This document shows, piece by piece, positions 4,419 to 59,348 of a stretch of 64,000 nucleotides of DNA. The position numbers and the translations under genes were made by a program. The notes under the pieces are model-generated. The model did not search any database. It saw nothing but the letters and a program-made list of their open reading frames with translations, and had not been told where the DNA came from. Each line of letters starts with the position of its first letter. Positions within the stretch are counted from its first letter, which is position 1. The DNA comes from Rosettibacter firmus. GTDB taxonomy: Bacteria; Bacteroidota; Ignavibacteria; Ignavibacteriales; Melioribacteraceae. The DNA is taken from contig NZ_JAYKGJ010000005.1 of NCBI RefSeq assembly GCF_036860695.1, forward strand, positions 62,001 to 126,000, given 5' to 3'.

Positions 4419-5855
4419 ATGACCGTAATCAAAAAGTTAAGGAATAATTCTTTCCTATCATTTTTATCAATTCTTTCAAGGCTTATTCCTAATTTTTTAA
4501 TCTTTTTATTTGTAGCTAGAATTTATCGTCCGTACGAATTTGGAATGTTCTCGTATGCACATACTTTATCTAATACATTTCTTCTTATTGCTGATTTTGG
4601 TTTTGATGTGTTACTTACTACTGAAATTGCCAAAAACAAAAATCGTGTTTCTGAAATTGTCTCTGAATATTTAATATCGAAAATTGTATTTGTTATTGTT
4701 GCAATAATCTCAATGTCTACGTTTATATTTTTGAAAAGTGATAGTATAAGTGAAATTATACTTGGCTTTGTGTTTTTAATTTATATGGTATTCAATTCAT
4801 TTTCGAACTTTATGATTTCAATAATTAAGGGACTCGAGAAATTTCATTATGAAACTACGATTTCAGTGATAATGAACCTTTCTTTGTTGTTACTTTCTTT
4901 TATTTTTATTTATACAACTAAAAATATTTTTTTAGTTGGATTGGCTTATGGAATATCAAGATTATTTGCAATTATATCGAGTAAAAAATTTATAAGAAAA
5001 GAAGTTGCTATAAAATTTGTAAAATTCAATAAGAATGATTTTATAGTAGCCATAAAAAAAAATATTGTATTTGGAAGTTTAGTTATATTAAATAATTTAC
5101 TTTATCAGCTTGATACTTTATTTCTTGGAGTATTAAAAGACAATTATAATGTTGGGATTTATCAATCTGTTAAAAATTTGATGTTTATTCCTTTTATAAT
5201 TCCGGGAATAATATACAATTCATTTTTACCTACAATGTCAAGGTTGTTTAAAGAAAATAATTACGAATGGTTTTCATCAACAAAGTTATTTTTCAAACTT
5301 ACAATAATTTTAAGTATGATTATTTCTGTTATCAGCTTTTCTTATCCAGAAGAAATAATTCACTTTTTTTATAGCAATAAAAATTATAACGAATCAATAA
5401 TTGTTCTTAAAGTTGCTGCTTTTGTGATGTTTCTAAGAATAATTTCAGATTTTTTTGGAGTAATGTTAATTACAACTGAAAAATTTAAAAAACATATTTT
5501 CACTTCATCTTTGGGAATTTTAATAAGTATAATTTTATTTTACGTATTGATACCAAAATACAATGCACTTGGAACAATGTTATCTTATTTGATAATGATA
5601 ATTGTTGTACTGATTATGTTTATTAAACCAAATTATAATATCTTTCTAAAAAAAATACTTGACGCAAGATTTCTATTTGTTGTACTTTATTATTTGACGA
5701 TTATATTATTATTCAATTTTCATAAAATGGATTTTGTTATAGGCATTACATTCATATTAATTTCATTTTCACTGATTTTAATGTTTATTTTTTATGATAA
5801 AGTTGAATTTAATTTATTCAAAAGAAATATATTGTTTTTAGGAAAAAGTAAATGA
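4419..5855 (+). CDS. Flippase (Wzx-like polysaccharide biosynthesis protein)
   Basis: Predicted to flip undecaprenyl-linked oligosaccharide across the inner membrane. It is 478 residues long, very hydrophobic, with about 12-14 membrane segments. The N-terminal pattern (short basic start, then LIPNFLIFLFVARIYRPYEFGMFSYA) is typical of the MOP/Wzx superfamily. Its stop overlaps the next gene's start (ATGA), showing translational coupling to the Wzy-like polymerase. A second, different flippase lies at 17201, so the locus may handle more than one substrate. Confidence 0.85.
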   Translation: MTVIKKLRNNSFLSFLSILSRLIPNFLIFLFVARIYRPYEFGMFSYAHTLSNTFLLIADFGFDVLLTTEIAKNKNRVSEIVSEYLISKIVFVIVAIISMSTFIFLKSDSISEIILGFVFLIYMVFNSFSNFMISIIKGLEKFHYETTISVIMNLSLLLLSFIFIYTTKNIFLVGLAYGISRLFAIISSKKFIRKEVAIKFVKFNKNDFIVAIKKNIVFGSLVILNNLLYQLDTLFLGVLKDNYNVGIYQSVKNLMFIPFIIPGIIYNSFLPTMSRLFKENNYEWFSSTKLFFKLTIILSMIISVISFSYPEEIIHFFYSNKNYNESIIVLKVAAFVMFLRIISDFFGVMLITTEKFKKHIFTSSLGILISIILFYVLIPKYNALGTMLSYLIMIIVVLIMFIKPNYNIFLKKILDARFLFVVLYYLTIILLFNFHKMDFVIGITFILISFSLILMFIFYDKVEFNLFKRNILFLGKSK

Positions 5856-56624: not shown

Positions 56625-57251
56625 ATGAAAACAAAAATACTTATTGTATTGTTATTTTTGTTCACTTTAACATCAGCACAATCAGTTACAAATTATGGAA
56701 TTAAAATCGGGGTTACCTTTTCAAAAGCAGTAGATATCGATATTAAAAATTATTACTGGAATTTATATAGAAATGCCAGAATTGGTAGTAATTACGGTTT
56801 CTTTGCACAAATATTTAAAACTGATAATATCAGCTTTGTAGCTGAAATGGGTTATAAACAAATTGGTGCTGAAGATAAAATCCCTGTTACAACATCAGAA
56901 AATCCAGATGGTACTGGAGAATTTATTACACTGGATCATGCATATGATTTTTTAGTCTTTCAAATATCCTTTCAACCTGAATATGAAATGCAAGCAGTTA
57001 AATTTTATGGAATTTTTGCTCCTACTTTTAATTATATGATAGGAAATAGAGATCAACTTATAATGAATAGATACGTAAAGAAATTTTTAATAGGGTACAA
57101 TCTGGGAATTGGGATTCAACCTAAAACTTTTTTAAATGGTAAACTCTTTTTAGAAGTTAATTACAATGGTTTCTTTTCCAAAGTTGTTTCAAACGATTTT
57201 GTTAGTATGAAATTTAGTTCGTTTCAGATTAGTATCGGGAATTATTTTTAG
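56625..57251 (+). CDS. Outer-membrane beta-barrel protein (PorT-like fold)
   Basis: 208 residues: signal peptide (1-18, ending TSAQS), then about eight amphipathic strands typical of small barrel proteins (TNYGIKIGVTFSKA, YGFFAQIFK, SFVAEMGYKQIG) and a final strand SSFQISIGNYF ending in Phe. Cargo or function unknown. It follows the small-protein pair by 24 bp. Confidence 0.75.
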   Translation: MKTKILIVLLFLFTLTSAQSVTNYGIKIGVTFSKAVDIDIKNYYWNLYRNARIGSNYGFFAQIFKTDNISFVAEMGYKQIGAEDKIPVTTSENPDGTGEFITLDHAYDFLVFQISFQPEYEMQAVKFYGIFAPTFNYMIGNRDQLIMNRYVKKFLIGYNLGIGIQPKTFLNGKLFLEVNYNGFFSKVVSNDFVSMKFSSFQISIGNYF

Positions 57252-57309: not shown

Positions 57310-57930
57310 ATGAAAAAATTATTTTTTTTAACTTTATTGCATTTGTTTTTAGTAGCACAAGTTTTATCGCAGCCTAAATATTCAATTCAAATTAATGGTG
57401 GATTACTGATGCCCAACAGTAATGATAAAGGATTAACAGCAAATATACAGTTAAATTATTTATTAGGAGAATCTGTTTATTTGTATTTTAATTCTGGAAT
57501 ATCAAGCTGGGATAAAAATATAATATCGTACGCAACTGGTAATCGGTTGCCTTATACTTCTTACTCAGAAGATGATCATTTATTAATTTATTTTTATACA
57601 GGAATACAAAAGAATTTAAAATCGGTTAAGACTTTTAATATATATTTTACAGTCGATGTGGGTTATAATTATTTAAAGTATAATAAGTATAAAAATATAA
57701 TATTAATAGACGAGGATACAAAAGAATTAATAAAATTTGATATAGAACCAGGTTCTGGTAGGAGAGAAAGTAAAAATCTTATTGGAGCAGGCATAGGAAT
57801 AGGTATTAATAATATGATGTCAGAAAATTTCGGGATATCTGTTAGTGGAAAAATGAATAATTTATTTTACTTACTTAAAGAGCCAAAAACTCAATATTCT
57901 ATTATGGTTAGTTTTATTTTTAAGATATAA
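57310..57930 (+). CDS. Outer-membrane beta-barrel protein
   Basis: 206 residues with a signal peptide (1-21, ending VLSQ) and barrel-like strands (YSIQINGGLLM, ESVYLYFNSGIS, IYFTVDVGYNYL, IGAGIGIGINNM), ending YSIMVSFIFKI. Ribosome site GGAG. It is related in type, not clearly in sequence, to the preceding barrel gene. Convergent with the lexA operon. Confidence 0.72.
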   Translation: MKKLFFLTLLHLFLVAQVLSQPKYSIQINGGLLMPNSNDKGLTANIQLNYLLGESVYLYFNSGISSWDKNIISYATGNRLPYTSYSEDDHLLIYFYTGIQKNLKSVKTFNIYFTVDVGYNYLKYNKYKNIILIDEDTKELIKFDIEPGSGRRESKNLIGAGIGIGINNMMSENFGISVSGKMNNLFYLLKEPKTQYSIMVSFIFKI

Positions 57931-57984: not shown

Positions 57985-58401
57985 TCATCTATCATCTTCA
58001 TCTATTATAGGGACTAATTTAATTTTGTTTTTAACTTCATCATCAAGTAAATTGATAATCATATCTGCCTGAAGAATCTTATTGGCTGGAACACCAACAA
58101 ATAATGTTACTTTACTATTTGACTTTGTTTTTAGATTTGCAAGTTTATTTAATCGTGATAAAAGTTGTGGGTCATCAAGATCTTTATCAGAAAGTGTTAT
58201 TCCAATTGCGATTTTCTTTCTATACTTTGATTTAAAATATACTGGTTCAGTAATACTTGCAACTACATCAATATCCCAACCATTTATTGAAGGTGGCTTT
58301 GGAAGATATTTACTATACTTTCTACTTAAAGTCATATATCCACGACTCAGTAGATGATCAACCAATCTCTCAACTCTAATTTTTTCTTTTTCTAATTTCA
58401 T
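57985..58401 (-). CDS. Hypothetical protein, possibly PD-(D/E)xK-like fold
   Basis: 138 residues. A basic N-terminal helix (EKEKIRVERLVDHLLSRGYM) is followed by GWDIDVVAS, which resembles the Asp strand of restriction-endonuclease-like folds, and RKKIAIGITLSDKDL where the ExK strand would be; the Glu and Lys are not at the expected place, so a nuclease is only a guess. It is the last gene of the lexA operon, 2 bp after the WYL-like gene. The C-terminus ends in an acidic DEDDR made by a 13-bp tandem duplication. Confidence 0.65.
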   Translation of the reverse strand: MKLEKEKIRVERLVDHLLSRGYMTLSRKYSKYLPKPPSINGWDIDVVASITEPVYFKSKYRKKIAIGITLSDKDLDDPQLLSRLNKLANLKTKSNSKVTLFVGVPANKILQADMIINLLDDEVKNKIKLVPIIDEDDR

Positions 58402-58403
58402 TT

Positions 58404-58652
58404 CTAATTAATTAATGGTGTTATTGAAATTACTGGCGAAAATTTTTGATAATTAAGTGTTTTGATGTTCGATATTTTTTTATACTCAAAACATTTTATT
58501 TCGTTTGTTCCAAATACTTTTCCATAGAGTACTTTCTTACCATTTTTGTTTTTTGAAACATAAAGTGGTTCTACGATAAATTCTTTTAAGCCATATAAAA
58601 ATTTTATTCTATTTCTATTATGAATTGCTGATTTAAAAATTACTGTTTTCAT
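58404..58652 (-). CDS. Mini WYL-domain-like protein
   Basis: 82 residues, a free-standing form of the Sm-like WYL domain found in transcription factors that sense nucleic acids or nucleotides. Seen: FKSAIHNRNRIKFLYGLKEFIVEPLYVS, then KKVLYGKVFGTNEIKCFEYKKISNIKTL and FSPV. The WYL tripeptide itself is VLYG here. ATG 58652 follows GGAGT at the right distance on the minus strand. It lies 13 bp after lexA, so it is likely SOS-regulated. Confidence 0.65.
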   Translation of the reverse strand: MKTVIFKSAIHNRNRIKFLYGLKEFIVEPLYVSKNKNGKKVLYGKVFGTNEIKCFEYKKISNIKTLNYQKFSPVISITPLIN

Positions 58653-58665
58653 AATTACTCCAATT

Positions 58666-59295
58666 TTAACTATAACTTCTGAAAACACCAATTACTTTTC
58701 CTATTATCGAAAAGTCATCGGTATTTTCAACAAGTATTGGTTTATAATTTTCATTTTCTGGTACGAGGTAAATTCTGCCATTTTCAATAACAAATCTTTT
58801 CATAGTTGCTTCGTCTCCCAGTAAGGCTATTATGATATCACCATTTTGTGCTTCCCTTTGAGGTTGTACAATTACTAAATCTCCTTCAAGTATACCTGCG
58901 TTTTTCATACTATCGCCACGCACCTTTAAGCCAAAGCATTCATTACGATTTCCAATTAAATTTTTGTCGATTGAAAGATTGCCTTCAATATTTTCTTCTG
59001 CCAGCAACGGAATACCAGCAGCTACTCGTCCAACAATTGGAATTTCAACAATATTTTGTTCTTCTGTTGGTGTATTATTTACAACTAAAGATAATGTTCT
59101 ACTGGCTCTTGACTCATTACTTAAATAACCTTTTTTAATTAATGCATCGATATGACGCTTTACACCAAATGTACTTGAAATATTGAATTTTTTCCCGATC
59201 TCTCGATAAGTGGGTGGATAACCATTAAAATCCACATAGTCTTGAATGAAATCGAGGATTTCTTTCTGGCGTTGTGTGATTTTTTGGTTTTTCAT
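58666..59295 (-). CDS. lexA: LexA repressor
   Basis: SOS repressor with self-cleavage. It is 209 residues from the ATG at 59295; an ATG at 59307 would add four residues. Winged-helix domain: ITQRQKEILDFIQDYVDFNGYPPTYREIGKKF. Cleavage site RVAAGIP (Ala93-Gly94), catalytic Ser129 in RGDSMKNAGI, Lys166 in EATMKRF. Two LexA-type boxes lie in its own promoter region, so it is probably autoregulated. Confidence 0.96.
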   Translation of the reverse strand: MKNQKITQRQKEILDFIQDYVDFNGYPPTYREIGKKFNISSTFGVKRHIDALIKKGYLSNESRASRTLSLVVNNTPTEEQNIVEIPIVGRVAAGIPLLAEENIEGNLSIDKNLIGNRNECFGLKVRGDSMKNAGILEGDLVIVQPQREAQNGDIIIALLGDEATMKRFVIENGRIYLVPENENYKPILVENTDDFSIIGKVIGVFRSYS

Positions 59296-59300
59296 AATAG

Positions 59301-59348
59301 TGCTCATTTGTTCACTGTTAATATAGTGAACAAATGTTCAGGTGTCAA
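59301..59348 (-). promoter_or_regulatory. lexA promoter with two LexA-type operators
   Basis: On the minus strand: TTGACA (59348-59343), 17-bp spacer, TATATT (59325-59320). The spacer contains TGAACA-AA-TGTTCA (59327-59340). A second box, TGAACA-AA-TGAGCA, spans 59301-59314, ending 5 bp before the chosen start and covering the alternative ATG at 59307. A 9-bp perfect inverted repeat (TTGTTCACT/AGTGAACAA, 59308-59316 and 59325-59333) links the two. The box is like the Gram-positive GAAC-N4-GTTC type. Confidence 0.8.

Follow-up and report, generated by a model that had tools for sequence, protein, structure and literature searches.

A LexA-headed operon of Ignavibacteriales encoding a predicted stand-alone WYL protein and a probable pseudo-nuclease

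The regulators PafBC and DriD are described as mediating DNA-damage responses through ssDNA binding in their WYL domain (PMC11804915, PMC12340889), and the DriD response is presented there as non-canonical and outside the SOS response. In one WYL survey, HTH-containing domain classes make up more than 90% of WYL sequences (PMC6789036). Two further papers place the YolD proteins (PF08863; YolD, YqjX), which are small and stand-alone, in the WYL superfamily and in LexA-controlled operons (PMC4012209, PMC6511836). LexA itself can share one operon with damage-response genes, as in lexA-imuA-imuB-dnaE2 (PMC3765255).

Herein, we analysed a 64-kb window (the whole stretch of 64,000 nucleotides) from a 3.24-Mb genome of nine contigs with a completeness of 99.98%, in which lexA is followed by the genes of two small proteins, P0001 and P0002. 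P0001 has the WYL fold in common with PafBC, DriD, CapW, and BrxR (Z 9.5-12.4), but it consists of the WYL domain only and keeps neither the WYL tripeptide nor one key Arg position; it also lies behind lexA, whereas DriD acts outside the SOS response. Its small size, stand-alone domain, and place in a very probably LexA-controlled operon recall YolD. However, YolD is encoded beside a Y-family polymerase gene, whereas P0001 is encoded beside lexA and has no Pfam or profile match to YolD. P0002 has the core strand order and the motif Asp in common with SdaI, NucS/EndoMS, XisH, and YraN (UPF0102), the last of which aligns to it over helix 1 and the Asp strand, but it lacks the Glu and Lys of the (D/E)xK motif and carries an extra RKxGxYLPxP segment. 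The arrangement resembles that of lexA-imuA-imuB-dnaE2, but neither small protein matched any of those families in Pfam and NCBIfam scans. The lexA-P0001-P0002 operon was not described among the literature matches listed, a set mostly without subscription papers, and the terms WYL, Ignavibacter, and Chlorobi had zero occurrences in the main text of a paper on the LexA of Bacteroidetes (PMC8565304). A bare WYL protein behind lexA with a nuclease-shaped partner thus looks like a new variation on known elements.

Gene layout and conservation of the lexA operon

The three genes are consecutive ORFs on the minus strand, lexA (58666..59295), P0001 (58404..58652, 82 aa, pI 10.05), and P0002 (57985..58401, 138 aa, pI 9.52), separated by gaps of 13 bp and 2 bp. 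The ORFs, lengths, and gaps given in the first-pass annotation were all correct when the sequence was read again, except for the lexA start, which had been set at the ATG at 59307. That codon falls within the second operator described below, and by-eye comparison with relatives made the ATG at 59295 (MKNQKITQRQ...) the likelier start. The identity of LexA was supported by a TIGR00498 score of 213.5 bits against a cut-off of 110.95, a confident equivalog assignment, and by Pfam matches to both LexA_DNA_bind and Peptidase_S24. The autocleavage residues Ala97-Gly98, Ser133, and Lys170 (numbered as in the first-pass annotation) were present here and in all 57 aligned orthologues.

A P0002 match was found in 55 of the 58 Ignavibacteriales genomes searched, including that of the window, and in all 55 the order lexA-P0001-P0002 was kept on one strand, so that the proposed synteny of both genes with lexA was borne out in relatives. 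P0001 stood directly behind lexA in each of the 57 lexA loci of the order that were compared. Genomes G001 (79% complete) and G054 had lexA and P0001 with no P0002 beside them, even by profile search. P0001 looks like the core part of the pair, since it is kept in these two genomes where P0002 was not found. In G030 both P0001 and P0002 were absent, and in place of a full-length LexA match there was just a 151-aa ORF with a short S24 match, behind which lies a Y-family polymerase gene. We also took in 80 of the 95 P0002 relatives in GTDB genomes as named loci, whose species partly overlap the 58-genome set; the relatives include Melioribacter, Ignavibacterium, Melioribacteraceae, and Ignavibacteriaceae, and these names are the basis for assigning the order to Ignavibacteriales. 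The trio was present in 78 of the 80. Of the remaining two, L200 begins where its contig does, and in L178 neither lexA nor P0001 occurs within 5 kb of P0002.

Beyond the order, a phylum sample of 395 genomes yielded P0002 matches in 39, all from Ignavibacteriales, and among the genomes listed G030 was the only member of the order without one. P0001 matches came from the same 39 genomes. Five more, all weak (E 1e-5 to 7e-4), sit within longer ORFs of 316-395 aa, and the three of these that were scanned were HTH-WYL regulators. At 11 lexA loci in sister families of the class, the P0001 and P0002 profiles matched nothing at E≤0.1. As for a viral origin, a pattern-based IMG/VR scan returned four stretches, none of them a P0002 relative, and neither protein had a tblastn match among 50,697 phage records.

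The surroundings of the trio are conserved as well. In 67 of the 78 named trio loci the next gene was uppS-like, and a BamA-like gene followed it in as many (both names come from reading of the sequences only); in 54 of the 78, one of the nearest three ORFs upstream was ilvE-like. Six of the 11 trio loci without the uppS-like gene have less than 800 bases of flank. In the genome of the window, the gene after P0002 is convergent and not uppS-like. Conserved adjacency alone is therefore weaker evidence than it appears, because the uppS-like and following genes are kept too. The spacing is more informative. The lexA-P0001 gap had a median of 12 bp (range -13 to 38, n=57), and the P0001-P0002 gap had a median of 12 bp (range -4 to 87) and was ≤40 bp in 53 of 55 loci, whereas the median gap from P0002 to the first ATG of the uppS-like ORF was 264 bp (range 92-754). 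These gap lengths and the promoter upstream of lexA set the trio apart from its conserved surroundings, and the median gaps of 12 bp together with the conservation of this promoter support co-transcription of the three genes.

LexA-type operators and the SOS regulon

Upstream of lexA on the minus strand lies a promoter of the form TTGACA-17 bp-TATATT (59320..59348), with TTGACA at 59343-59348 and TATATT at 59320-59325, and a similar layout was found upstream in relatives. Two putative LexA operators accompany it on the same strand. Operator 1 (CCTGAACATTTGTTCACT, 59325..59342) is an 18-mer between the -35 and -10 elements, overlapping TATATT by one base, and with a score of 17.9 it was the second best site in the window. 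Operator 2 (AGTGAACAAATGAGCACT, 59299..59316) lies just downstream of the -10 element, scored 25.6, and matches AGTGNNCANNTGNNCACT exactly, as no other site of the 3.24-Mb genome does; the next best site in the window scored 10.1. The two LexA-type boxes noted earlier ahead of the operon are thus real as sequences and are kept at the lexA promoters of relatives. Among 57 such promoters, the best box had ≤2 mismatches to AGTGNNCANNTGNNCACT in all 57, a second box with ≤3 mismatches was present in 55, and the two were spaced by 26 bp in 50. It is only through these relatives that the boxes become convincing, because the simpler pattern GAACNNNNGTTC had one match in the window and 29 of 100 shuffles reached as many. 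Sites with ≤2 mismatches are likewise no evidence by themselves, since the genome of the window held 36 of them against 30 for a control pattern. At C1:379596 there is an operator with one mismatch, located in or at an MFS-like ORF, which we took as a chance match.

As the operator pattern was derived from lexA promoters, only its 33 other places are independent, and all 33 were examined. The exact pattern, in its 19-base form AGTGNNCANNNGNNCACTA, occurred in 45 of the 58 genomes with 109 strand-hits, and these, like the 33 further places, compare with 3 hits of the reversed control pattern; AGTGNNCANNNGNNCACTA is near-palindromic, and many places are counted twice among the 109. At 27 of the 33 places a polymerase gene starts nearby, either DnaE-like (24 places, motif CFYIESPGMR) or of the Y family, and at L309 an S24/UmuD-like gene does so. 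Pfam scans of representatives of the operator-linked genes confirmed DNA_pol3_finger, IMS, and Peptidase_S24. No polymerase or S24/UmuD-like gene was found at L294, L307, L314, L316, and L320. Because the same operator adjoins a translesion polymerase gene at 27 of the 33 other places, the lexA-P0001-P0002 operon is very probably SOS-controlled.

Placement of recA under a LexA operator is common in SOS systems but not obligatory. We scored 22 of 23 recA loci (L365 was left out) and found no convincing operator in any of them, so that recA was rejected as a LexA target. The best upstream site scored 8.3 (L360, at -241) and the next best 2.1, compared with 4.9-26.5 for true operator boxes (10th percentile 16.7, median 21.5); the recA gene of L360 may have a weak operator. 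The recA of the window's own genome (L356) was without a convincing one. An ORF of 1153 aa holds the single DnaE-like match of that genome, and its one Y-family gene (C1:1574141) has no site with ≤2 mismatches nearby. From these patterns, Ignavibacteriales look to have a small SOS regulon with the lexA operon as its constant member, a size estimate from which targets with weaker boxes would escape.

Predicted folds of P0001 and P0002

P0001 had been called WYL-like from its sequence, and this held well in predicted structure, structural alignment, and profile comparison. The AlphaFold2 model, built from a 57-row alignment, consists of a helix and five strands with a pLDDT of 89.7. In Foldseek, PafBC, DriD, BrxR, and CapW ranked first with a best E of 0.0016, and nothing was returned at E≤0.001. 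VIA-align aligned 73 residues with DriD at Z 12.4 and an rmsd of 1.3 Å, followed by PafBC chain 9fnd_X at Z 11.2; Hfq was lower at 9.3. WYL (PF13280) was the Pfam family that most P0001 members matched, 23 of 57 at E≤1 with a best E of 0.0024; the P0001 of the window itself had no WYL match at E≤1. In profile-profile comparison, the family aligned to five full-length WYL regulators with P 7e-9, compared with 0.27 and 0.43 for control pairings. P0001 is, on its modelled fold, a stand-alone WYL (Sm-like beta-barrel) domain, a single domain of 82 aa with neither an N-terminal HTH nor a WCX. In PADLOC, a single P0001 homologue gave the two best matches, AbiEii (0.00037) and WYL (0.0011). No match of note came from NCBIfam and PHROGs scans of the two small proteins, and PDB sequence searches with the P0001 and P0002 profiles gave nothing meaningful.

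Within the family, A9, P29, and K40 are invariant. The C-terminal tail (58422..58442, minus strand), FSPIIPI in the family and FSPVISI here, lies mostly outside the barrel, with block pLDDT values of 70 and 50, and is a candidate interaction motif; F71 is kept in 56 of 57 members, P73 in 55, and P76 in 51, the window's protein having Ser at 76. The contacts of PafB with ssDNA are reported as R181, Y196, R204, R208, R211, and R214 (PMC11804915). When PafB and P0001 were aligned by hand, with R204 left out, R214 corresponded to position 59 (Lys/Arg in 54 of 57 members) and R208 to position 53 (Lys/Arg in 48), whereas R211 corresponded to position 56 (Glu in 48), Y196 to position 41 (Val in 48), and R181 to position 25 (Ile, Val, Phe, Thr, Leu, or Trp). 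As this contact set is only partly kept, the ligand of P0001 may not be ssDNA. Nucleic-acid binding is nevertheless likely from the modelled fold and the charge (pI about 10). Both families are basic throughout, with median pI values of 9.9 for P0001 and 9.6 for P0002. Pairwise dN/dS was 0.01-0.09 for P0001 (five pairs) and 0.04-0.16 for P0002 (three pairs), values for which synonymous sites were near saturation in several pairs, and both genes appear to be under purifying selection.

The AlphaFold2 model of P0002, built from 55 rows, has the order alpha-beta-beta-beta-alpha-beta-alpha-beta with a pLDDT of 91.2, which is the PD-(D/E)XK strand order. Foldseek returned nothing at E≤0.001, the best match being MspJI (E 0.021, TM 0.43). 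The VIA-align ranking was headed by SdaI (8.5), ASFV RNA polymerase chain E (8.2), and PaqCI (8.0), then by a Pyrococcus repair endonuclease (7.7) and XisH (7.3), with many restriction enzymes below and a few unrelated entries such as acetyl-CoA carboxylase; we take most of the top entries to be PD-(D/E)XK folds. The best Z of 8.5 is moderately above background and near the level of common arrangements. The YraN profile match (P 3e-4, probability 41%) covers helix 1 and runs on to where strand 3 begins. The nuclease-like fold suggested in the first-pass annotation is moderately supported by the strand order, the SdaI score, and the YraN match, and the GWDIDVVA stretch does lie where the Asp strand of a PD-(D/E)XK fold is expected.

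The residues for cutting present a different picture. The motif Asp, D45 in strand 2 (58267..58269, minus strand), is Asp in 54 of 55 members and Glu in one. The position expected for the Glu of (D/E)xK is G67 (58201..58203, minus strand), which is Gly in 54 of 55 members and Ala in one; it was assigned from the strand order and by extension of the YraN alignment, which ends about G67. At position 69 the 55 members carry Thr, Val, Ile, Ser, Ala, Leu, Asn, Tyr, or Cys, and none has Lys or Glu. Because the (D/E)xK Glu and Lys are missing across the family, an active nuclease is unlikely, and we rejected nuclease activity by homology as the leading view; P0002 is probably a pseudo-nuclease that has lost its cutting residues. 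Other positions are well kept, namely R27 and P36 (invariant, 55 of 55), position 11 (Asp in 52 and Glu in three, including the window's protein), D/E74 after strand 3 (53 of 55), and the conserved RKxGxYLPxP segment ahead of the motif Asp. Between strands 2 and 3, the P0002 of the window and its nearest relative, L002, have 10 inserted residues, which are absent from the other 53.

Possible roles of the P0001-P0002 pair

We hold it to be highly likely that Ignavibacteriales have a LexA-autoregulated SOS operon and that P0001 and P0002 have WYL and PD-(D/E)XK folds. The best explanation overall, an SOS operon with a damage-induced DNA-binding accessory pair, has in our judgement about an even chance of being right. 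As a working mechanism, which we put forward tentatively, the pair would tune the response as a DNA-binding accessory. DNA damage would give rise to ssDNA, RecA filaments would trigger LexA self-cleavage, and the lexA-P0001-P0002 operon would be derepressed. P0001, which is basic, might then use its Sm-like groove to bind a nucleic acid, either ssDNA or another, and P0002, the likewise basic probable pseudo-nuclease, might bind the adjoining duplex or junction, so that the pair might limit or tune the response at the level of RecA-LexA signalling or fork processing. It is a rather doubtful further proposition that the operon unites LexA cleavage and WYL ssDNA sensing, two damage-sensing routes otherwise described apart. 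If it were true, direct reading of ssDNA would fall to a bare WYL protein induced through LexA, which together with its DNA-binding, nuclease-shaped partner would act on RecA-LexA signalling or on the fork; this would be an SOS feedback or effector module of a new type.

Other roles have to be weighed against this accessory pair. P0001 could serve a translesion polymerase complex as a small subunit resembling YolD or UmuD', and P0002 could be a further mutasome part. The small, stand-alone, LexA-controlled YolD proteins, placed in the WYL superfamily by two papers (PMC4012209, PMC6511836), lend this some appeal, as does the DnaE-like or Y-family polymerase gene that is the commonest other operator target (27 of 33 places). 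However, none of the 57 P0001 members matched PF08863 at E≤1, and profile comparison with six YolD proteins gave P 0.27, although that comparison is insensitive, as full WYL regulators also fail it (0.19). Moreover, seven of the 58 genomes keep P0002 at lexA but have no Y-family match (three 99-100% complete, four 81-90%), and the window's genome, though it has one Y-family match, has only the one DnaE-like match, in the 1153-aa ORF. A purely mutasome role is not favoured, because the trio is kept where a Y-family match is absent and also in the window's genome, which has no separate SOS DnaE-like gene; we consider this explanation unlikely. We give equally little weight to P0001 or P0002 as a direct LexA/RecA feedback regulator of the SOS switch, comparable to DinI or RecX. 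P0001 does stand behind lexA in 57 of 57 loci, its C-terminal tail is conserved, and it is retained in the genomes without a P0002 match; since none of the 22 recA loci scored has a convincing operator, tuning could take place on the side of LexA. But the positive partial correlations among the distance trees of the three proteins (54 loci, L013 left out) are confounded by shared descent and were not used as evidence.

Two further readings appear quite improbable. In one, P0002 would be a nuclease that is active through a site elsewhere in the protein and is gated by P0001. Asp45 (54 of 55), Arg27 (55 of 55), the acidic position 11 (55 of 55), and D/E74 (53 of 55) are conserved, and fusions of WYL domains with Mrr-like nucleases are reported (PMC4012209), but the expected Glu is Gly in 54 of 55 members and Ala in one, and position 69 is without Lys or Glu in all 55. 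In the other, the two genes merely sit within a conserved housekeeping block, ilvE-lexA-x-y-uppS-bamA, with no SOS role. The uppS-like gene that follows in 67 of 78 trio loci and the ilvE-like gene upstream in 54 of 78 agree with this; however, the uppS-like ATG lies 92-754 bp away while gaps within the trio have a median of 12 bp, the window's genome keeps the trio although a gene other than uppS follows it, and G030 is without lexA and both small genes together.

Returning to the accessory pair, P0001 and P0002, both unstudied, may be central to DNA-damage handling in Ignavibacteriales, because the lexA operon is the most constant member of what looks like a small SOS regulon. Their small size puts both within reach of direct expression and testing, and P0001 would also allow the question of the WYL ligand to be addressed without attached HTH or WCX domains. 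The two proteins need not be an obligate pair, as G001 and G054 have P0001 without P0002, and P0002 is unlinked from lexA in L178.

Variation in the two small proteins

The PD-(D/E)XK-fold protein without the (D/E)xK motif, P0002 (138 aa), carries a 10-residue insertion at residues 49-58 (window 58228-58257), between strands 2 and 3 of the predicted structure. Among 55 homologues, this insertion was common only to the protein of the window and that of the same-genus genome G002 (L002). The homologue of the 82-aa WYL-domain protein P0001 at locus L013 (G009) comprises 73 aa and lacks the conserved FSPIIPI tail, providing a natural test of the role of this tail.

Gene neighbourhood of the operon

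Two adjacent ORFs, at 57310-57930 and 56625-57251, both convergent with the lexA-P0001-P0002 operon and read by eye as exported or outer-membrane protein-like, occupy the place that a uppS-like gene takes in most relatives. At locus L178 (Melioribacteraceae SKW230; 4995-5384), the P0002 homologue was near neither lexA nor P0001 when a 5 kb flank was examined, the sole such case among 80 named P0002 homologues (80 of the 95 relatives found).

Other genes linked to lexA or its operator

In family f13 of the same class (L248-L252, L254, and L255), a different conserved small protein follows lexA and is another clade-specific lexA partner. An end pattern like RLExLCExLRAKY was found in the small protein after lexA at seven of the 11 loci examined in this class.

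At L297 and other operator loci, the LexA operator accompanies a DnaE-like protein of ~560 aa with finger and HHH domains. L297 also has a separate, divergently placed PHP/NTPase-domain ORF; this arrangement is a split DnaE under putative LexA control.
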